Virus record (IMG/VR): IMGVR_UViG_3300020470_002183
Span: 1-20,731 of that record
DNA from: a virus
Direction: 5' to 3' (one strand)
DNA length: 20,731 bases
Shown: piece by piece, positions 3,084 through 18,296 of the stretch
Layout: every line of letters begins with the position of its first letter
Numbering within the stretch: position 1 is the first letter of the stretch
Translations under genes and position numbers: made by a program
The notes under the pieces: generated by a model
Told to the model about the DNA's origin: nothing
What the model saw: the letters and a program-made list of their open reading frames with translations, nothing else
Databases searched by the model: none

Positions 3084-3487
3084 AGCCTTACGAATTAATA
3101 GGACTTGAATATCGTTTAGGATCTGATCCTGTAAAACATGGAACTGGTGATTGTTTATCTTTATGCAGAACTGTTTTAAAATATTATGGAATAGCATCTC
3201 CCGAACCAAAGCGTAATTGGTATAGAAGATTAAAGAGAAAAGACTATAGTATCTTTTTTGAAGAATTAAATCGGTGGGGAGTTGAATCACCCCCTAAACT
3301 AGGAGCAATTGGTTTATGTCATGGTGAAAATGATTCCTATGGTATGGCTGCTTATTACGAGGAAGGATGGCTAAGTTACCAAAAGACATTAGGAAGCCAG
3401 GTGGTGATTTGGTCGCCGCTAGAAGCCCTTTCACTCGCAGGGTGTTACTTCCAACGGAAGCCGATCTCTGTAATGCACTTGGATTAA
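3080..3487 (+). CDS. gpK-like tail protein with NlpC/P60-type fold
   Basis: Read from TTG 3080 it is 135 aa and begins MKPYELIGLEYRLG. TTG overlaps the upstream TGA as TTGA. The longer reading from GTG 3041 adds MCSSSFDRSITKS, which lacks a ribosome site and shows no dual-coding signature. The motif HGTGDCLSLCRTVLKYYG resembles the nucleophile region of NlpC/P60 cysteine peptidases (Asp-Cys followed by a helix). In lambda, gpK has this domain and acts at the tail tip, where it may cut peptidoglycan. The expected histidine, in a pattern like H-V/G-x-x-Y before the following strand, is not obvious: the matching stretch reads SYGMAAYYEEGWLS. The enzyme may be inactive or use another residue. The C-terminus (VVIWSPLEALSLAGCYFQRK) looks like a genuine family end although it is encoded inside the overlap with the J-like gene. 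Confidence 0.7.
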   Translation: MKPYELIGLEYRLGSDPVKHGTGDCLSLCRTVLKYYGIASPEPKRNWYRRLKRKDYSIFFEELNRWGVESPPKLGAIGLCHGENDSYGMAAYYEEGWLSYQKTLGSQVVIWSPLEALSLAGCYFQRKPISVMHLD

Positions 3488-9372: not shown

Positions 9373-12300
9373 ATGCCAGATCTTGAGATCAGTAATCTGC
9401 CAGCATTAGCTGAAGCAGGAGTACAAGGGACAGATCCTGTCGCTGTTGCAGACTTAAGTGCTTCAGAAACAAAAAAGGTAACAGTTAAAGATTTAATTGC
9501 TGCTGGTGTTTCGTTAATTGATGATGGAGATATCCCTGCTGCAAAAGTAGCTACTCCTTTTGCGGCAAACGCAGTTGCGACAGCAACAATTCAAAACTTA
9601 GCTGTTACAGCAGGTAAGATTGCCAATAATACAATTACTGCAAATCAAATAGCTACAAATGCTATTACGGCAACAGAATTAGCGGATAATGCTGTAGACA
9701 CAGATGCCATAGCCAATGCAGCAGTAACAGATATTAAATTAGCTACCAATTCAGTTACGGGAGTAAAAATTGCCAGCAATGCAATTACAGAAGGAAAAAT
9801 AGCTGATGGATCGGTAACTAATGCAAAACTAACTTTAACTGACGGAAGTATTGCAGGATCAAAAATAGCTTCTGGAGGAATAACAGCAACACAGCTATCT
9901 ACAAATTCTGTAACGGCTACAGAGTTAGCGGATAACGCTGTTGATACTAATGCAATTCTTAATAATGCAGTAATTGCAACAAAGATAGCTTCTGGTGTTA
10001 TCACTTCAGCTCATTTAGCAGCAGATTCAGTTACTAATACTCAGATAGCAGATAACGCTGTTGGCACAGATCAAATAGCAGATGGAGCTGTAACTGCTGC
10101 AAAACTTTCTGGAACGTTAGCAGCTACTTCACTTGCAAATGATGCAGTAACAACTAACAAGATTGAAGATGATGCTGTTACTAGTGACAAGCTTGCAACT
10201 AATGCTGTAGATGCAAATGCTTTAGCAGATTCTTCTGTCGATGCAAATGCAATTATTAATGGTGTTGTTACTAATGCAAAACTAGCTAATTCAAGTATTA
10301 GTTTAGGCGGTTTAAATCTGTCTTTAGGTAGCACAGATGCAACTCCAGCATTGAATCTTGTAGATGCTACAAATTATCCAACAAGTTCTTTAACTGGCAC
10401 GATTACAAATGCACAACTAGCAGGAAGTATTGCAGGTACAAAATTATTAAATTCGACAATTGATTATGCAAAATTAAACTTAGCAGATGGAGTTATCCCT
10501 GGAGCAAAACTTACGAATGCAAGTGTTACGGCTACTCAAATAGCACAAGATACTATTACTGCTAATGAGTTAGCAAATAATGCTGTTGATTCAAGTGCAA
10601 TAGCAAGCAATGCAGTCATAAGTGCAAAAATTGCGGCAAATGCTGTTACTGGTGCAAAAATTGCAAATACAACAATTTCAGCTTCTAAATTAGATACAAC
10701 AACTTTAGATCGTTCATTAAACGTAGCTAGTGGAAATCTTGGAATAAATAATGCTATTACTGCTGCAACTCGTTCAGGAATTACATATAACGCTCAAGGA
10801 TTAATTACTGGAACGGTTGCACTTGCTGCTGCTGATTTACCTGTTGCGACAACAACTGCTGTTGGAGGTGTTTCTGTTGGGTCTGGATTAACTGTTAGTG
10901 GAGCAGGTGCATTATCTATTACTAATAGTATTACAGGAGCAACAGTTAGCGGTATAACTTATAACGCTCAAGGCATGATTACTGCTGCTACAGGATTAGT
11001 TGCTGGTGATCTTCCAGTTGCAACTACGAGTGCTAAAGGTGCAGTACAGATAACATCTGGAGGTGGCTTAACTGTAGATGGTAGTGGTAATCTAACGACT
11101 TCAACAAGTGGCGTTTCTGCTGGAACATTTACTAAAATAACTGTTAACAATAAAGGTGTTGCTACCGCAGGGGCAACACTTGTAGATACTGATATTCCTG
11201 ATATTCCTGCAACTAAAATCACAAGTGGAACAATAGACGCTGCAAGAATTGGAAATGGTTCTATTGATGGAACAAAATTAAGTAACGCTTCGACAGCAGT
11301 ATTTCAATCAATAGCACAACAAGGTTATCCAACAGCACAATTTAATGGACAAATACTATTTGATACGGTTTCAGAAGATGCATTTATTTGGGATGGAAAC
11401 GCCTGGCAAGCAATAACCACACTGACAAAAGGAAGTTTGGTCTTTGGTGGAAACTACAACGCAAACACAAGTAAAATGACAGCTTGTACCACCGCAGGAT
11501 TAGCGGCTGGTTTAGCAGTTGGAAGTAATTTACCTACACCTTCAGCGACAACTGATGGTCTATATGTCGTAGTGGACACTGCTGGAACACCTGCGGCTCC
11601 AGCTCCAGTTGTTTCTTTCTCCCCTCCTGATTACATACTTGGAGTTACAAATAGTAGTGGTTCTTCATGGAATGAGATTGATTTATCTCAAACAGTTGCA
11701 GGTCAAGTTGCAAGTAATATTACCTTTACTCCTTACGGTCAATTAAGTTCAACCAATGTTCAAGATGCGTTGCAAGAACTTGAAACAGAGAAGATGGGGT
11801 TTGCTGGTGGAACTGTAAGTGGTCAATTATTGATAGGAAATACTGGAAGTCTTGCTTTTGAAGGAAGCACTGTTGATGCTTATGAATTAACTCTTGCTGT
11901 TTCCGATCCGCAAGGAAGTGATAAGACAATTACTTTCCCAGATGTAACAGGAAATGTTGTAACGACTGGAGATACTGGAACTATTACTGGAACGATGCTT
12001 GCCAATGACACGATCCAGAACGTAGACATTAAGAGTGATGCTGCGATTGCATTTACAAAATTAGCTAATTTAAATTCTGCTCAAATACTTGTTGGTAACG
12101 GATCTAATAAAGCAACAGCAGTAGCAGTTACAGGAGACATAAGCATAAATAATGCTGGCCTGACAGCAATTGCCAGTGGCGTAATTGTTGACGGTGATAT
12201 TTCTGGATCGGCTGCAATTACAGGATCAAAGATTACTACTGGAACGACAAGTGCCGTGGGTGTCTTGCAGCTAACTGATAGCACAAACTCGACTTCTGCT

Positions 12301-15300
12301 ACTACTGCTGCTACTCCTAACGCTGTTAAAACCGTAAATGATGCGTTAACGACAACAACCGCAACAGCTAATGCTGCCTTGCCGAAGGCTGGGGGCACAA
12401 TGACGGATCATTTAACTATTGATAATGGAAAAGAAATTAGATTTAGCGAGGTAGATTCCAATGGTTCTAACTATGTAGCCTTACGATCACCAGATACATT
12501 AAGTACTGATATTACCTTTGTTCTTCCTTCTTCAGCAGGTACAGGAGGTCAGATATTAAGAACAGCAGGATCAGGTGTATTTGAATTTACAGATGATATA
12601 AATGGTAACGCGGCAACAGCAACAGTTTTAGCTAATGCAAGAACAATAGGTGGAGTTAGTTTTAATGGTTCTGCAAATATAGATTTACCAGGTGTTAATA
12701 CTGCTGGAAATCAAGATACGACAGGGAATGCTGCGACAACTACTGCTCTAGCAACTGCAAGAACAATAGGTGGAGTTAGCTTTGATGGTACGGCAAATAT
12801 TAATCTTCCTGGTGTTAATGCTTCTGGAACACAAGACACTTCAGGAACAGCAGCACTTGCAACACAATTTACTGTTACAGCCAATAACACTACAGATGAA
12901 ACTGTCTATCCTTTGTTTTCTGATGGGGCCACTGGATCTCAAGGGGCTGAAACAGACACAGGATTTACTTACAATCCTTCGACTGGAGTTCTAACTTCTA
13001 CTTCTTTTGCAGGTAATTTAACTGGAAATGTAACTGGAAATATAACTGGAGACATAACTGGAGACTTAACTGGAACAGCAGATTTAGCAACTCAATTCAC
13101 AGTTACAGCAAACAATTCAACAGATGAGACTGTTTATCCTTTGTTTGTTGATGGAGCTACTGGATCTCAGGGTGCTGAGACTGATACTGGTTTAACTTAC
13201 AACCCTTCAACTGGGATGTTAACAAGTACTGGATTTACTGGTGCTTTAACTGGAAATGCCTCTACTGCCACAGCGTTGGCAACCGCAAGAACAATTAACG
13301 GAACTAGTTTTGACGGCTCCGCTAATATTTTAGTACCAAAATTACTTCCTTCTTCAGGACAGTCTGGAACGGCACTTGAAATAATAGATTCTGGCAGTAA
13401 TGCACATGTAACGATAGATCTTGACGGTTCTGAGAAATTTAGATTCACATCAGATGGTGAGTTTTTAATAGGGACCACAGGTTCGTCAGTTGCAGCAGCA
13501 GTAGCCGATCAATTTGTAATCAATAGCAGTGGAAATGGTGGTATGTCGATTATCGGAGGTACTACTCACGATGGTCATATCTTCTTTGGTGATACAGACG
13601 CAGCTTTACGAGGAGGAATCTCTTACAACCATGATGGAGATTATTTCTACTTCCGAGCTGCTGGAGATACTGAAAGATTTAGAATTAGTTCAACAGGAGC
13701 AGCAGTAACAGGAGGACTAACAGTAAGTGGAGATTTAACAGTTAGTGGCACAACGACAACAGTTAACAGTACTCAATTAGATGTCACTGATAAAAACATT
13801 ACGATGGGTAATGTTAGTACTCCTACTGATTCAACTGCTGATGGTGGAGGTTTAACTCTTAAAGGTGCTACAGATAAAACATTTAACTGGGTTAACTCAA
13901 CAGATGCTTGGACATCTTCAGAACATATTCAAGTTGCTAGTGGTAAGACATTTATTGGGAATGTAACTGGAAACGTAACTGGTGATCTGACTGGAACAGC
14001 AACAAATGCTACTCATGTATATCTCACAGACAATGAAAACACGAATGAAAATAATTTAATTCCATTTGTTGAGAACGGAGCGTCAAGTACTGGTAATCAC
14101 GGTTTGGAAATGGATGGTGATTTAACTTATACCCCTGCTTTAGGAAGACTCACAGCTACTCAATTAGCAGGAACACTTGTAACTGCTGCACAAACTAATA
14201 TTACTTCTCTTGGAACGCTTACTGGTTTAACTGTTAATGGTGATCTCACCCTGACAGGGGCAAGTGCAAATGTTACCTGGGACAAGTCAACAGATGATTT
14301 AATTTTTAATGATAGTGCTAGAGCAATATTTGGAACAAATTCAGACGGATTAGAGATTTACCATGAATCAAATAATTCATACATTGCTGACACTGGTACT
14401 GGTGCTTTAATCTTCAAAAGCAATACCTATTCATTTAGAAATGCTGCTGATAATGAACAGATTGCGAAGTTCAACGAGAACGGATCCGTTGAGTTGTATC
14501 ACAATGACGTCAAAACTTTTGAGACAGAAGATAACGGTGCATATATTTATGGCCCTGATGGTGGCATAGCTCAGTTAATGCTTTATGCCGATAGAGGAGA
14601 TGATAATGCTGATAAATGGAGAATGGCTACTAGTGCTAGTGCTAGTGAATTTACTTTATTTAATTTTAATGATGGTGCTTGGGAAACCAGTATAAAAGCC
14701 ATTGGTAGTTCAGGTGTAGAGTTATATAGAGATAATGTTAAAAAGCTTGAGACAGACGGAAATGGTATCAACGTAATAGACAATGACTCTACAGTTGAGG
14801 TTTCTCTTACTGATTCAAATGGTGCGGCTGGTCATGTCTATGGAAACAGTTCTAGCGGTTTAATCGCTCTATTAGTTGGTAACGGAGGAACTTCTGTAGC
14901 TGGTTATCAAAGCGGAGCGACACAACTTTTTCACAGTAACTCTAAAAAGCTTGAGACATCCAGTTCAGGCGTTACGGTAACTGGAACGGTATCAGACAGC
15001 AAAGGCGACCTGCGTTCTATACCTCAAAACGCTCAAACTGGAAGTTCCATCTATGAATTTGTTGCTGCTGATGCTGGTAAGCATGTTTTGAGGTCTGGTG
15101 GTCATGTGCGTCTACCTTCTAATATTTTTGCTGCTGGAACGGCTATTACAATAATTAACAATAGTTCTTCAAATATTAACGTTATTTCTGGCAGTGGAGT
15201 CACTCTATATAACACCGCCGATGGCAATACAGGTCAACGAACTTTAGCCGCGAGAGCTATGGCTACTGTTATATATACAACTGCTGGGGCTAATCAAAAT

Positions 15301-15330
15301 GTCTACATCTCAGGTTCAGGGGTGTCATAA
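9373..15330 (+). CDS. Giant repeat-built tail fibre protein
   Basis: 1985 aa, starting at ATG with GAGGG (9366-9370) only 2 nt upstream. A leader (MPDLEISNLPALAEAG) is followed by long arrays of 10-residue repeats (about 71-310 and 347-440), then a duplicated module near 468-577 (SGITYNAQG, DLPVATT). Next come a bridge containing SEDAFIWDGNAWQ, copies of ARTIGGVSFDGTANI-type fibre repeats, a duplicated 51-residue block, and a module around DVTDKNITMGN that I recall from cyanophage fibres. Three copies of an ELYRDNVKKLET-type motif lie near the end. The last 80 or so residues (AITIINNSSSNINVISGSG, ISGSGVS) look like a compact beta C-terminal tip. Such proteins usually trimerise and bind the host surface. 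No chaperone domain or Asp-rich autocleavage motif was seen. It shows no catalytic site. Confidence 0.9.
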   Translation: MPDLEISNLPALAEAGVQGTDPVAVADLSASETKKVTVKDLIAAGVSLIDDGDIPAAKVATPFAANAVATATIQNLAVTAGKIANNTITANQIATNAITATELADNAVDTDAIANAAVTDIKLATNSVTGVKIASNAITEGKIADGSVTNAKLTLTDGSIAGSKIASGGITATQLSTNSVTATELADNAVDTNAILNNAVIATKIASGVITSAHLAADSVTNTQIADNAVGTDQIADGAVTAAKLSGTLAATSLANDAVTTNKIEDDAVTSDKLATNAVDANALADSSVDANAIINGVVTNAKLANSSISLGGLNLSLGSTDATPALNLVDATNYPTSSLTGTITNAQLAGSIAGTKLLNSTIDYAKLNLADGVIPGAKLTNASVTATQIAQDTITANELANNAVDSSAIASNAVISAKIAANAVTGAKIANTTISASKLDTTTLDRSLNVASGNLGINNAITAATRSGITYNAQGLITGTVALAAADLPVATTTAVGGVSVGSGLTVSGAGALSITNSITGATVSGITYNAQGMITAATGLVAGDLPVATTSAKGAVQITSGGGLTVDGSGNLTTSTSGVSAGTFTKITVNNKGVATAGATLVDTDIPDIPATKITSGTIDAARIGNGSIDGTKLSNASTAVFQSIAQQGYPTAQFNGQILFDTVSEDAFIWDGNAWQAITTLTKGSLVFGGNYNANTSKMTACTTAGLAAGLAVGSNLPTPSATTDGLYVVVDTAGTPAAPAPVVSFSPPDYILGVTNSSGSSWNEIDLSQTVAGQVASNITFTPYGQLSSTNVQDALQELETEKMGFAGGTVSGQLLIGNTGSLAFEGSTVDAYELTLAVSDPQGSDKTITFPDVTGNVVTTGDTGTITGTMLANDTIQNVDIKSDAAIAFTKLANLNSAQILVGNGSNKATAVAVTGDISINNAGLTAIASGVIVDGDISGSAAITGSKITTGTTSAVGVLQLTDSTNSTSATTAATPNAVKTVNDALTTTTATANAALPKAGGTMTDHLTIDNGKEIRFSEVDSNGSNYVALRSPDTLSTDITFVLPSSAGTGGQILRTAGSGVFEFTDDINGNAATATVLANARTIGGVSFNGSANIDLPGVNTAGNQDTTGNAATTTALATARTIGGVSFDGTANINLPGVNASGTQDTSGTAALATQFTVTANNTTDETVYPLFSDGATGSQGAETDTGFTYNPSTGVLTSTSFAGNLTGNVTGNITGDITGDLTGTADLATQFTVTANNSTDETVYPLFVDGATGSQGAETDTGLTYNPSTGMLTSTGFTGALTGNASTATALATARTINGTSFDGSANILVPKLLPSSGQSGTALEIIDSGSNAHVTIDLDGSEKFRFTSDGEFLIGTTGSSVAAAVADQFVINSSGNGGMSIIGGTTHDGHIFFGDTDAALRGGISYNHDGDYFYFRAAGDTERFRISSTGAAVTGGLTVSGDLTVSGTTTTVNSTQLDVTDKNITMGNVSTPTDSTADGGGLTLKGATDKTFNWVNSTDAWTSSEHIQVASGKTFIGNVTGNVTGDLTGTATNATHVYLTDNENTNENNLIPFVENGASSTGNHGLEMDGDLTYTPALGRLTATQLAGTLVTAAQTNITSLGTLTGLTVNGDLTLTGASANVTWDKSTDDLIFNDSARAIFGTNSDGLEIYHESNNSYIADTGTGALIFKSNTYSFRNAADNEQIAKFNENGSVELYHNDVKTFETEDNGAYIYGPDGGIAQLMLYADRGDDNADKWRMATSASASEFTLFNFNDGAWETSIKAIGSSGVELYRDNVKKLETDGNGINVIDNDSTVEVSLTDSNGAAGHVYGNSSSGLIALLVGNGGTSVAGYQSGATQLFHSNSKKLETSSSGVTVTGTVSDSKGDLRSIPQNAQTGSSIYEFVAADAGKHVLRSGGHVRLPSNIFAAGTAITIINNSSSNINVISGSGVTLYNTADGNTGQRTLAARAMATVIYTTAGANQNVYISGSGVS
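9583..10302 (+). repeat. 10-residue (30-nt period) repeat array in the fibre shaft, block 1
   Basis: About 24 consecutive decapeptides at fibre residues 71-310 follow the loose pattern x-x-K/Q/E-I/L-A-x-N/D/G-A/S-V/I-T/D, for example GKIANNTITA, NQIATNAITA, TELADNAVDT, SDKLATNAVD. Phase slips of about two residues near 157 and one residue near 250 interrupt it. Regular alternation of Ile/Leu and Val with small residues suggests a beta-solenoid or trimeric shaft, which is inference. Confidence 0.85.
10411..10692 (+). repeat. 10-residue repeat array in the fibre shaft, block 2
   Basis: Fibre residues about 347-440 resume the decapeptide array after a 36-residue break (LGGLNLSLGS onward), with units such as ASVTATQIAQ, TITANELANN, AVDSSAIASN and AVTGAKIANT, about nine units in all. 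The repeat class is the same as block 1. Confidence 0.8.
10774..11103 (+). repeat. Tandem duplicated 51/52-residue fibre module
   Basis: Two copies, at 10774-10926 and 10948-11103, share SGITYNAQG, ITxxxxLxAxDLPVATT, and GLTVxGxGxL. They differ at many other positions, so the duplication is old. The copies link the decapeptide shaft to the central part of the fibre. Confidence 0.8.
12637..12779 (+). repeat. 120-nt spaced direct repeat, ARTIGGVSF module
   Basis: An identical 23-nt stretch occurs at 12637-12659 and 12757-12779, encoding ARTIGGVS within two copies of a 40-codon module (ARTIGGVSFxGxANIxLPGVN). A third, more diverged protein copy (ARTINGTSFDGSANI) follows near 13285. This is a common repeat type in phage tail fibres. 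Confidence 0.8.
12856..13236 (+). repeat. Duplicated 51-residue fibre block, 228 nt apart
   Basis: Copies at 12856-13008 and 13084-13236 encode LATQFTVTANN through TSF/TGF with 46 of 51 residues identical by hand count. The nucleotide copies differ at about 36 of 153 positions. A third degenerate version (NLIPFVENGASS, GDLTYTPALGRLTATQ) lies near 14050-14170. Confidence 0.85.
13018..13077 (+). repeat. 12-nt tandem repeat, tetrapeptide [LIV]TG[NDT] x5
   Basis: Five in-frame 12-nt units encode LTGN VTGN ITGD ITGD LTGT. A shorter version (GNVTGNVTGDLTGT) lies near 13960-14001. The units fit a beta-solenoid-like linker and are a likely site of slippage. Confidence 0.85.
14491..14958 (+). repeat. 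Three copies of a 12-residue ELYxxxxKKLET motif
   Basis: Copies lie at 14491-14526 (ELYHNDVKTFET), 14719-14754 (ELYRDNVKKLET) and 14923-14958 (QLFHSNSKKLET). I recall this motif class from marine phage fibre tips. Spacing is uneven (228 and 204 nt), so these are repeated domain elements and not a tandem array. Between the first two copies lies a small CTAGTG x3 run (14630-14647). Confidence 0.75.
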
Positions 15331-15371: not shown

Positions 15372-18296
15372 ATGTCTAACCAGCAATTGCTTTTAGGAGT
15401 AGGAGCGCAAGGTGACCCTAAATATTTAGATGATTACTTCGCAATTCATAATTATGTAGGAAACGCAACAGCTAGAAGTATTGATAATGGGATTGATTTA
15501 TCTTCTTCTGACAGTAATGGAGGGATGGTATTTATTGCCAATATTACAGATACATCTCATACGGTTGTACAGGATACAGTTCGAGGAATGTCGAATACTA
15601 CAAGACTGGCAACTGATCAAACTTGGGCTCAAGGCTCAAATGGCAATGCAGATGATCATAAAGGTTATATTAGTGCTGCAAATACAAATGGATTTAGTCT
15701 AAATAAGCAAGGTAGTGGTGATTGGCTTGCTGTAAATAAATCAAATTCTGCTTATAACAGTTATACATTTAGACGTGCTGAAAAGTTTTTTGATATTGTT
15801 ACTTATCAAGGGAATGGTTCATCTAGTGCAAGAACAATTTCTCATGGATTAAAAAGTGCTGTTGGATGCATTTGGATTAAAAATTTGAGTAATAATCGGA
15901 ATTGGAGTGTTTGGCATCGAAGTTATAATGGAAGTGCTAAGTTAAATCTTTATAATAGTTTTGATACTGGAGAAACTCGTGTAAGTGCTACTTCAACTGA
16001 TGACTTTACTATTAGTTCAAGTAACAATGAAGTAAATGCTTCAGGTGATAATTATGTAGCATATGTTTTTGCACATAACGATGGTGATGGAGGTTTTGGA
16101 ATTAACGAAGATGCTGATGTTATTAAATGTGGAATATGGAATGGAGGATATTATTTTGGTCAGTGGTTAAATATAGGTTTTGAACCTCAATGGATTCTAT
16201 GGAAGGAAGCTGATAATAATAATGATTGGCGATTACTTGATAATCAAGCAGGAATGAATAGTTCATTCCAACTGTTCCATAGAATTAATAATGAAGCGGC
16301 TGGAGAAACGCTGTCAACTGCAAGTAATTTCTTTATGCCAGGCGTAACAGGTAATGGAGGTAATACTTCAAGTTATGGAGCAGAAGGAGCTGGAATTAAT
16401 TTTAATGATGACGCTACTCCTTGGAATCCAAATAGACATATTGTATATATAGCAATTAGAAAATTAGATGGAGTTTGTGCTAGACATTTAACTGATTCAA
16501 ATAAACTTTTTAGTATTGTTCAAGGAACATCAAATAATCCAACATTTAAACATGATCATTATATCGAAGCAGCACTATTATTTAAACCTAATGATAATGA
16601 AACAGAAAATGCAAAGAAGAAATTTTATACCAGAAGTGGCACAGGAGATTATTATATACAAACTACTGGAGGTAATTCAAAAAGTAATAGTAATAGTCCT
16701 GTTGGTAAAGCAGACTTTTATTCATACGCAGAAGGTTATGGTTCAGGTGTAAATACTGATTTCTACTCTTTAGCTTTTAGATCATGTAATTTTATTTTTC
16801 AATCGCACTATGTGATTCCTTATAACAGGATGTCAGCAGATCAATTAATAGGTCATCAATTAGGTGGTACTCCTGAGATGATATTTATTAAAAGTTTGAG
16901 TAGTCAAGAGTGGGTTGTATGGCATAAAGATTTAACATCTGGGAATGTAATGAAATTTAATAGAGAAGACTCACAATATTCAGAAAGTTTAATTGATGCT
17001 GTTAGCTCTACAAATATTGAGATAAATGCAAATACATCTAATAACGTTTCACAACCATATAACACAACTCCTTTTTCTCTTACAATGTTTAGAACGGCTA
17101 ATGATGAAGATGGTAATCGAATATGTCATGTTGGTTCGTATCAAAATGCTTCTAGTGATGTAAGTGTTAATTGTGGATTTGAACCAAAATTTTTACTTGT
17201 AAAAAATAGGGATAGAGATGGAGATTGGATTTGTGTTGATACAACAAGGGGATGGGTTAGTCCTACTGCTGGAATGGGTGAAGCTGTATTTACTTCAGCA
17301 GGTACACATTCTTGGACAGCTCCTAGTGGTGTAACTTCTGTTTCTGTTGTGTGTATAGGAGGTGGTGGTTCTGGTGGTTCTGGTTCAGGATCAGGAGGTG
17401 GTGGTGGTGGATTAGGTTATAAAAATAATATTTCAGTAACGGCTGGACAAAGTTATACCGTTGTTGTTGGTGGAGGTGGAGCGATGAGTTGTGGGGCGGC
17501 AAGAGCTGGATTTGATGGTGGTGATTCTTACTTTATTAATACTTCAACAGTAAAAGGAGGGAAAGGATATGGAGGTGGTTATTACGCTTATAACTGGGGA
17601 AATGCAGGAAAAGGTGGAGATTATACTGGAGATGGAGGAGGGAATGGAGGAGATGGAACATACAATGGTGGTACTTCTGGAGGAGGAGGAGCTGGAGGAT
17701 ACGCAGGGGATGGAGGAGATGGAGGATCTACTGGTGGAACAAGTGGAAGTGCTGGATCTAATGGTGCGGGAGGAGGAGGCGGTGGAGGAGGTACAACTCC
17801 ATACCCACCAAGCGATAAAGGATCAGGAGGAGGTGGTGGTGTAGGAATATATGGGCAAGGCTCTAATGGCACAGGAGGTGCTGTTTATAATTATGGATGG
17901 AGTAGCAATAACTATTCTGATGGTGGAACAGGAGGATCAGGAGGAGGAGATGGTACAAAATGGCAAAGTAATGTTTGCTCAGGCTCAAATAGATCTGGAG
18001 GATATGCTGGAAATTATGGAGGTGGTTCTGGTGGTGGCTTCTCAAACGATGGTGCTCCTGCTGGAGGCAGTGGAGCTGTAAGAATTGTTTGGTCTACATC
18101 AGGAACAACAAGAGCTTTCCCTTCTACAAACGTGGGAGGCAGTACAGATAAAATCACTTTTGCCAACAATACTGAAAAGCAACAAGATATTGATGCCTTC
18201 TCTAAAGACGGAAATGGATTTACAGCTTTAGCTGGAACGATTGCAAATCCATCTTCAAATACAGGAGATACATTTATTTATCTGGCAATTCGATGA
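15372..18296 (+). CDS. Second tail fibre / adhesin with lectin-like repeats and glycine-rich domain
   Basis: 974 aa, ATG with a good ribosome site. Several related beta-rich repeats are visible, starting near residues 22 (YFAIHNYVGNATARSI), 138 (FFDIVTYQGNGSSSARTI), 246 (DVIKCGIWNGG), 490 (HQLGGTPEMIFIKSL) and 580 (RICHVGSYQN). Their shared elements are Gly-x-Pro before a strand such as IWIKNLS, WILWKEA or FLLVKNRD, then a Trp-containing strand, and an ending like YIAIR. They match my memory of a repeat domain common in marine cyanophage fibres (DUF7483-like), which I cannot confirm here. Residues 637-907 are a glycine-rich domain beginning EAVFTSAGTHSWTAPSGV and ending SGAVRIVW, a class found in phage adhesins. 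The protein ends FIYLAIR, the same ending as the internal repeats. The likely role is receptor binding outside the cell. Confidence 0.85.
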   Translation: MSNQQLLLGVGAQGDPKYLDDYFAIHNYVGNATARSIDNGIDLSSSDSNGGMVFIANITDTSHTVVQDTVRGMSNTTRLATDQTWAQGSNGNADDHKGYISAANTNGFSLNKQGSGDWLAVNKSNSAYNSYTFRRAEKFFDIVTYQGNGSSSARTISHGLKSAVGCIWIKNLSNNRNWSVWHRSYNGSAKLNLYNSFDTGETRVSATSTDDFTISSSNNEVNASGDNYVAYVFAHNDGDGGFGINEDADVIKCGIWNGGYYFGQWLNIGFEPQWILWKEADNNNDWRLLDNQAGMNSSFQLFHRINNEAAGETLSTASNFFMPGVTGNGGNTSSYGAEGAGINFNDDATPWNPNRHIVYIAIRKLDGVCARHLTDSNKLFSIVQGTSNNPTFKHDHYIEAALLFKPNDNETENAKKKFYTRSGTGDYYIQTTGGNSKSNSNSPVGKADFYSYAEGYGSGVNTDFYSLAFRSCNFIFQSHYVIPYNRMSADQLIGHQLGGTPEMIFIKSLSSQEWVVWHKDLTSGNVMKFNREDSQYSESLIDAVSSTNIEINANTSNNVSQPYNTTPFSLTMFRTANDEDGNRICHVGSYQNASSDVSVNCGFEPKFLLVKNRDRDGDWICVDTTRGWVSPTAGMGEAVFTSAGTHSWTAPSGVTSVSVVCIGGGGSGGSGSGSGGGGGGLGYKNNISVTAGQSYTVVVGGGGAMSCGAARAGFDGGDSYFINTSTVKGGKGYGGGYYAYNWGNAGKGGDYTGDGGGNGGDGTYNGGTSGGGGAGGYAGDGGDGGSTGGTSGSAGSNGAGGGGGGGGTTPYPPSDKGSGGGGGVGIYGQGSNGTGGAVYNYGWSSNNYSDGGTGGSGGGDGTKWQSNVCSGSNRSGGYAGNYGGGSGGGFSNDGAPAGGSGAVRIVWSTSGTTRAFPSTNVGGSTDKITFANNTEKQQDIDAFSKDGNGFTALAGTIANPSSNTGDTFIYLAIR
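17280..18092 (+). other. Glycine-rich adhesin domain within the second fibre
   Basis: About 271 residues (637-907) with long glycine-dominated stretches framed by a beta-strand entry (FTSAGTHSWTAPSGVTSVSV) and exit (SGAVRIVW). This frame is characteristic of the glycine-rich domain family in phage and bacterial surface proteins. In T-even phage gp38 adhesins such segments form a polyglycine-II sandwich whose loops contact receptors. At DNA level the plus strand is rich in GGA and GGT triplets, and the opposite strand gives spurious proline-rich open frames. Confidence 0.8.

Follow-up and report, generated by a model that had tools for sequence, protein, structure and literature searches.

A TNF-like and glycine-rich module nested within a repeat of a probable fibre-tip adhesin from a marine siphophage

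The stretch of DNA analysed here, referred to as the window, is a virus record of 20,731 bases. It is a fragment of a metagenome contig and carries siphophage tail genes: first comes the tape measure, then a set of small tail genes, and after these the genes for a 1389-aa tail protein, a fibre of 1985 aa, and a 974-aa protein. Among named phages, the 1389-aa tail protein shows similarity (~27%) only to Synechococcus siphophages S-CBS1, S-CBS3, and S-LBS1, a distant likeness from which a cyanobacterial host is possible. The features discussed below belong to the last two of these genes. Repeat borders marked as mapped were carried over from the model of an orthologue that lacks the insert and is designated L246; such insert-free proteins are referred to as empty.

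9373–15330, plus strand: long tail-fibre gene, 1985 aa; an ORF with PHROG tail-fibre matches and Pfam Phage_fiber_2, syntenic in relatives and directly upstream of the adhesin gene
14995–15327, plus strand: C-terminal ~111 residues of the fibre, defined with their own HMM; proposed docking end (socket)
15372–15407, plus strand: N-terminal tag of the adhesin, MSNQQLLLGVGA, common to unrelated adhesin bodies behind similar fibre ends; proposed plug
15426–15776, plus strand: repeat 1 (beta-sandwich); PF24299, mapped from the L246 model
15777–16076, plus strand: repeat 2; PF24299, mapped from the L246 model
16122–16460, plus strand: repeat 3; PF24299, mapped from the L246 model
16497–16781, plus strand: repeat 4; mapped from the L246 model
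16782–17096, plus strand: repeat 5; mapped from the L246 model
17097–17270, plus strand: repeat 6, first part, up to ...DTTRGWVSPT; PF24299 and alignment with empty homologues
17271–18128, plus strand: inserted TNF-like/glycine-rich module, residues 634–919; PF21722, a stand-alone gene, AlphaFold, and a match to Pam3
18129–18293, plus strand: repeat 6, second part (...DKITFANNTEKQ...GDTFIYLAIR); matches repeat ends by itself and aligns with empty homologues

The 974-residue protein (15372–18296) comprises two DUF7483 domains (Pfam PF24299), which amount to six beta-sandwich repeats of ~100 residues each. PF24299 matches the protein in two stretches, with 132.8 bits against a cut-off of 27. The six-repeat body is seen both in this match and in the predicted structure of the L246 orthologue, which was folded with AlphaFold2 from 51 sequences (pLDDT 92.1, pTM 0.90). 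The model opens with a short helix at residues 3–8, followed by a low-confidence linker at residues 9–14, and contains six beta-sandwich repeats. Mapped onto the window, it replaces the five repeats counted in an earlier note on this DNA with six. The same note had called the repeats lectin-like; matches to galectins are weak (best Z 5.2 over 76 residues) and within the range of common arrangements, and the resemblance is retained as a lead. Two PHROG labels also fall on 15372–18293, “tail fiber assembly” from phrog_863 and “head and packaging” from phrog_19943. Since these matches are made through the glycine-rich and DUF7483 parts only, the labels can mislead annotation.

Repeat 6 is split by an insert of 286 aa, 37% of which are glycine, and is completed by the last 55 residues of the protein. 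At the insertion site the window reads DTTRGWVSPTA, then ~286 residues, and then NVGGSTDKITFANNTE, while empty homologues read DTERGIVSGNDPxLxLNxT. This point corresponds to the turn between strands 587–590 and 600–604 of repeat 6 in the L246 model. When the flanks are joined, they match positions 12–638 of the 639-position family profile with 356 bits. No match to the DUF7483 profile is obtained with the insert by itself (E 1.4). The final 55 residues by themselves do match a repeat end (E 9e-6), with the end of repeat 3 as the best single-domain match. On the module side, Marine virus AG-345-E15 has a stand-alone gene of 298 aa that matches the whole insert with 58% identity and fixes the borders. 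Empty homologues on one side and this copy on the other make the borders accurate to ~6 residues. The open frame is continuous across both junctions, and Pfam Gly_rich_2 (PF21722) is found at residues 641–857 (35.3 bits against a cut-off of 24.3; profile positions 1–219 of 226). At the sequence level, these comparisons place the module within the repeat-6 hairpin of the window protein.

Much of what the earlier note had read from the letters holds. It had correctly located the beginning of the repeat, the stretch rich in glycine, and the end of the repeat, and alignment, by which it had hoped to fix the borders, does so when the stand-alone copy is added to the empty homologues. Its span of 17280–18296 does contain the glycine-rich insert, but also takes in the end of repeat 6 and the stop codon. 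Its idea of a cassette in a loop agrees with the turn in the insert-free orthologue and with the empty versions seen in syntenic relatives and in most homologues. Neither of the two contrary outcomes it had named was found, namely a glycine-rich segment in all homologues or a C-terminal part that is a separate domain.

Base composition gives no sign that the module was imported recently. Third-position G+C (GC3) is 0.13 in the module and 0.145 and 0.22 in its flanks, and the high overall G+C reflects glycine codons. Nor can a donor be named, since identities of 44–65% to relatives are ordinary for the module’s family. Small ORFs within the module (17569–17844, plus strand; 17621–17872, minus strand) are by-products of the glycine codons, proline-rich on the opposite strand, and are not genes.

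The insert was folded with AlphaFold from 46 module sequences, apart from the L246 body, and is predicted with confidence to be a TNF-like/glycine-rich module (pLDDT 86.9, pTM 0.88). Structure prediction, a check proposed in the earlier note, thus covers orthologue and module separately, and both are predicted with confidence. The best matches among solved structures, those to the fibre of cyanophage Pam3 (Foldseek E 2e-6), reach Z 19.1 by VIA (198 residues, rmsd 4.7) and Z 18.1 (189 residues, rmsd 3.2). A tail-tip protein of Bxb1 follows with Z 14.3, and the TNF-like/glycine-rich domains of ALK/LTK with Z up to 8.8. Structures of gp38 are absent among the listed fold matches of the module model, an absence that does not exclude likeness. 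From these matches, what had been termed a glycine-rich adhesin domain is indeed glycine-rich but is better named a TNF-like plus glycine-rich receptor-binding module. In the alignment of the module family, conserved glycine stretches alternate with variable segments at residues 704–712, 735–747, 807–818, 837–850, and 862–876. A sequence search of the PDB with the window protein returned only antibody linkers, matched through glycine composition, and was discarded.

To place the insert within its family, 161 distinct, near-full-length DUF7483 proteins were gathered from two IMG/VR scans with homologue alignments and from other loci that were fetched. No insert is present in 152 of these, and nine carry inserts of >200 aa at three sites only; the scans rank their matches from the best downward, and the insert-bearing glycine-rich cases came in part from a search for the module, so these counts are not population frequencies. 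The sites and their occupants are:

Site A, a loop of repeat 1: L063, L082, L344, CRP-603, L101, and L135
Site B, the linker joining repeat 2 to repeat 3: L247 and L335
Site C, within repeat 6: the window only

Pfam identifies LamG domains in five of the inserts (L063, L082, L344, L247, and L335) and a glycine-rich domain in two (L101 and L135), while the CRP-603 insert has no Pfam match. Site A therefore accepts two unrelated kinds of domain, LamG-like and glycine-rich. The exchange of domains envisaged in the earlier note is thus found in the family, at the repeat 1 loop, but not at the site used in the window, which has a single occupant among the 161 proteins. A second case at that site was sought with the DNA pattern GFEP...WTAP...KNN; it returned 17 loci, none with DUF7483 sequence. 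When viral contigs were scanned with patterns from the window protein by itself, these proved too specific and gave no match. Homologues of 641–661 aa from Roseobacter phages CRP-1, CRP-4, CRP-9, and CRP-13 match both flanks of the insert and have no glycine-rich stretch.

The 1389-aa tail protein led to relatives of the window phage, in which its gene is followed, in conserved order, by three small tail genes, the fibre, the slot for the adhesin, and the phrog_605 gene. The content of the slot is variable. For instance, the L246 slot holds an empty DUF7483 protein only 29% identical to that of the window, whereas the neighbouring genes are 52–81% identical. The L247 slot holds a DUF7483 protein with LamG. 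In L269 (12281–15361), the slot encodes an adhesin of 1027 aa that bears the tag MPIQQIFLGAGG and a LamG array made up of four Laminin_G_3 stretches. The slots of L200, L209, and L229/L230 hold another adhesin or none. These differences among syntenic relatives indicate that the adhesin changes far faster than its neighbours. By comparison of sequences, the DUF7483 family is seen to gain and lose modules at a few permissive sites and to exchange whole adhesin bodies within one and the same gene slot. In four of the relatives (L200, L209, L229, and L230), the fibre is without the conserved end and the slot without a tag-bearing adhesin, an unrelated 516-aa protein being present in L229/L230.

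The module itself occurs in other settings as well, for example alone behind a short N-terminus, as C-terminal fusions after other domains, and in tandem. It is a widely used phage module, and its nested position is the unusual part. In L132 and L133, an ORF from position 3450 encodes 985–986 aa with three tandem TNF-like/glycine-rich modules and the same kind of tag. Another phage protein (L121, 1680–5354) combines a subtilase (Peptidase_S8) domain with a glycine-rich module.

The association of fibre ends with tags extends beyond DUF7483 proteins. The last ~111 residues of the window fibre, searched with their own HMM, recur at the ends of other fibre genes and have no Pfam or PHROG match of their own. 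Thirty-two loci (some near-identical) have such an end followed by further sequence, and in these the next gene starts with a short N-terminal tag, which in about half is of the kind M..(I)QQ(M/L)LLG.G. The bodies behind the tag are empty DUF7483, DUF7483 with an insert, the glycine-rich module, or a LamG array. Loci with such a fibre end ahead of a short-tag adhesin include L246, L247, L269, L014, L113, L130, and L132. Across 176 adhesin genes with an upstream neighbour, the upstream ends fall mainly into two classes, each of which precedes both DUF7483 and glycine-rich adhesins.

The link between fibre end and tag was measured in two ways. Globally, the rank correlation between fibre-end similarity and tag similarity is weak (0.13; 110 of 2000 shuffles were as high). 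In a nearest-partner test, the tag of each of 27 glycine-rich adhesins was compared with that of the DUF7483 adhesin whose fibre end is nearest. This test asks a sharper question, was chosen after the global correlation had been seen, and does not fully control for relatedness; it gave a mean tag score of 21.0 against 13.2 in shuffled sets (sd 1.1), with none of 10,000 shuffles as high (p ~1e-4). Control residues 21–60 show no link to the fibre end in the same test (p 0.64). Examples of such tag pairs are SNVKKLMMTAAA with SNIKKLMMTAAG, SVIGSNILAGAS with SVIGHSPLAGAS, and PLLGTRGAASAR with PLLETKGAASAQ. The pattern suggests a plug-and-socket exchange like that of T2 gp37/gp38, although recombination linkage of the tag to the fibre end, with no physical docking, could also be its source.

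The neighbourhood, the empty orthologues, and the predicted folds together make the DUF7483 protein encoded by ORF 15372–18296 the probable adhesin at the fibre tip of a marine siphophage. A tag of ~12 residues at its N-terminus would dock on the C-terminus of the long fibre, whose gene lies just upstream, and the two DUF7483 domains, with their six beta-sandwich repeats, form its body. Judged from the sequence, the chain exits at the hairpin that links strands four and five of repeat 6, builds a complete module, and returns to finish the repeat. By analogy with Pam3 gp24 and T-even gp38, the glycine-rich stem may hold variable loops that touch a receptor on the host surface. That the module binds a host receptor is suggested by Pam3 and by slots elsewhere in which the module is the sole adhesin body, while a function specific to the repeat-6 site would rest on one sequence, the nested arrangement being seen once there. 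Exchange of modules at permissive sites and of whole bodies could allow different receptors to be tried while attachment to the virion is kept, with a presumed effect on host range. A tag-docked fibre-tip adhesin with six repeats, a nested receptor-binding module, and exchange is the best explanation as a whole, and is considered likely.

Of the competing explanations, the most serious, though still unlikely, is that the nested module serves as a structural spacer or a generally sticky surface (e.g., for polysaccharide or particles) and that specific binding is left to the beta-sandwich repeats. In empty orthologues the slot is retained and binding presumably takes place without the module, and the weak similarity of the repeats to galectins fits a binding role for them. 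The closest solved structure, however, is the receptor-binding end of a cyanophage fibre (PMC9608196), and in other viruses the module alone is the entire gene body in the same slot, both of which argue for a receptor-binding module.

The remaining two alternatives concern whether the module is nested at all. The appended-module reading, in which the last 55 residues form a small domain of their own and the module simply follows an incomplete sixth repeat, draws on the best single-domain match of the tail being to repeat 3 instead of repeat 6. It is made very improbable by the ending being common to all repeats, by the alignment of the joined flanks through repeat 6 to its end, and by the alignment of the tail to the final strands of empty homologues, which the L246 model shows as ordered. 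Just as remote is an assembly artefact, in which two genes of a mixed metagenome were joined and the insert is not part of one real protein. While the window is a metagenome contig fragment, the arrangement occurs once in 161 homologues, and the targeted pattern scan gave no second case, a chimera would need two in-frame joins exactly flanking one hairpin, plus a tail that completes the same repeat. Moreover, the frame is open through both junctions, third-position G+C is alike in module and flanks, and independent contigs carry the same kind of insertion at other sites.

Both domain families were already known, and the fold and role of the module have been published for Pam3. The literature searched contains no mention of DUF7483, and, as far as it shows, three things are new: the nesting of the module in a repeat of DUF7483, the mapping of sites permissive for insertion, and the rule that links fibre ends to tags. 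Host recognition by uncultured marine phages is mostly unknown, and DUF7483 is without an assigned function. The present analysis locates sites in a DUF7483 adhesin that accept a second binding domain, and it indicates that insertion into internal loops, and not only C-terminal replacement, is a way in which receptor-binding domains of phages can spread. The fibre-end/tag rule might also find tip adhesins in unannotated contigs, even where the bodies are unrelated. A broader reading, about which opinion is evenly poised, is that marine tailed phages share a plug-and-socket system in which a previously undescribed fibre end of ~110 residues is the socket, an N-terminal tag of ~12 residues is the plug, and unrelated bodies are swapped behind the plug, with modules additionally inserted at permissive DUF7483 sites. 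The bodies would include six-repeat DUF7483 proteins, TNF-like/glycine-rich modules, and LamG arrays, and the window would be one case of second-level insertion.

Within its own family, the window protein resembles the DUF7483 proteins of Roseobacter phages CRP-1, CRP-4, CRP-9, and CRP-13, which are likewise full-length members, and differs in the 286-residue module added in repeat 6. The proteins of CRP-603, L063, L082, L344, L101, L135, L247, and L335 are, like it, DUF7483 adhesins with an inserted domain, but at other sites. Outside the family, the N-terminus of gp38 in T2-type phages must match gp37, and gp38 of phage PP01 functions on T2 only with the T2 N-terminus (PMC12892980), as would be expected if a plug has to fit its socket. 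The gp38 proteins of the T2/S16/PP01 type share with the window a fibre plus tip adhesin encoded by two genes and a glycine-rich stem with variable loops. T-even gp38, however, combines a beta-helix with a polyglycine II sandwich, whereas the glycine-rich module of the window is internal. The ALK/LTK domain has the same general fold as the module (Z 7 to 9) but belongs to animal cytokine receptors and implies nothing on function here. The closest in structure is gp24 of Pam3 (PDB 7ypx, 7yfw; PMC9608196), which likewise has a TNF-like plus glycine-rich fold, a conserved glycine stem, and variable loops. In gp24 the module forms the C-terminus of a short trimeric fibre whose shaft is alpha-helical, whereas in the window it is internal, followed by 55 residues of repeat 6, and nested in a loop of another adhesin domain.
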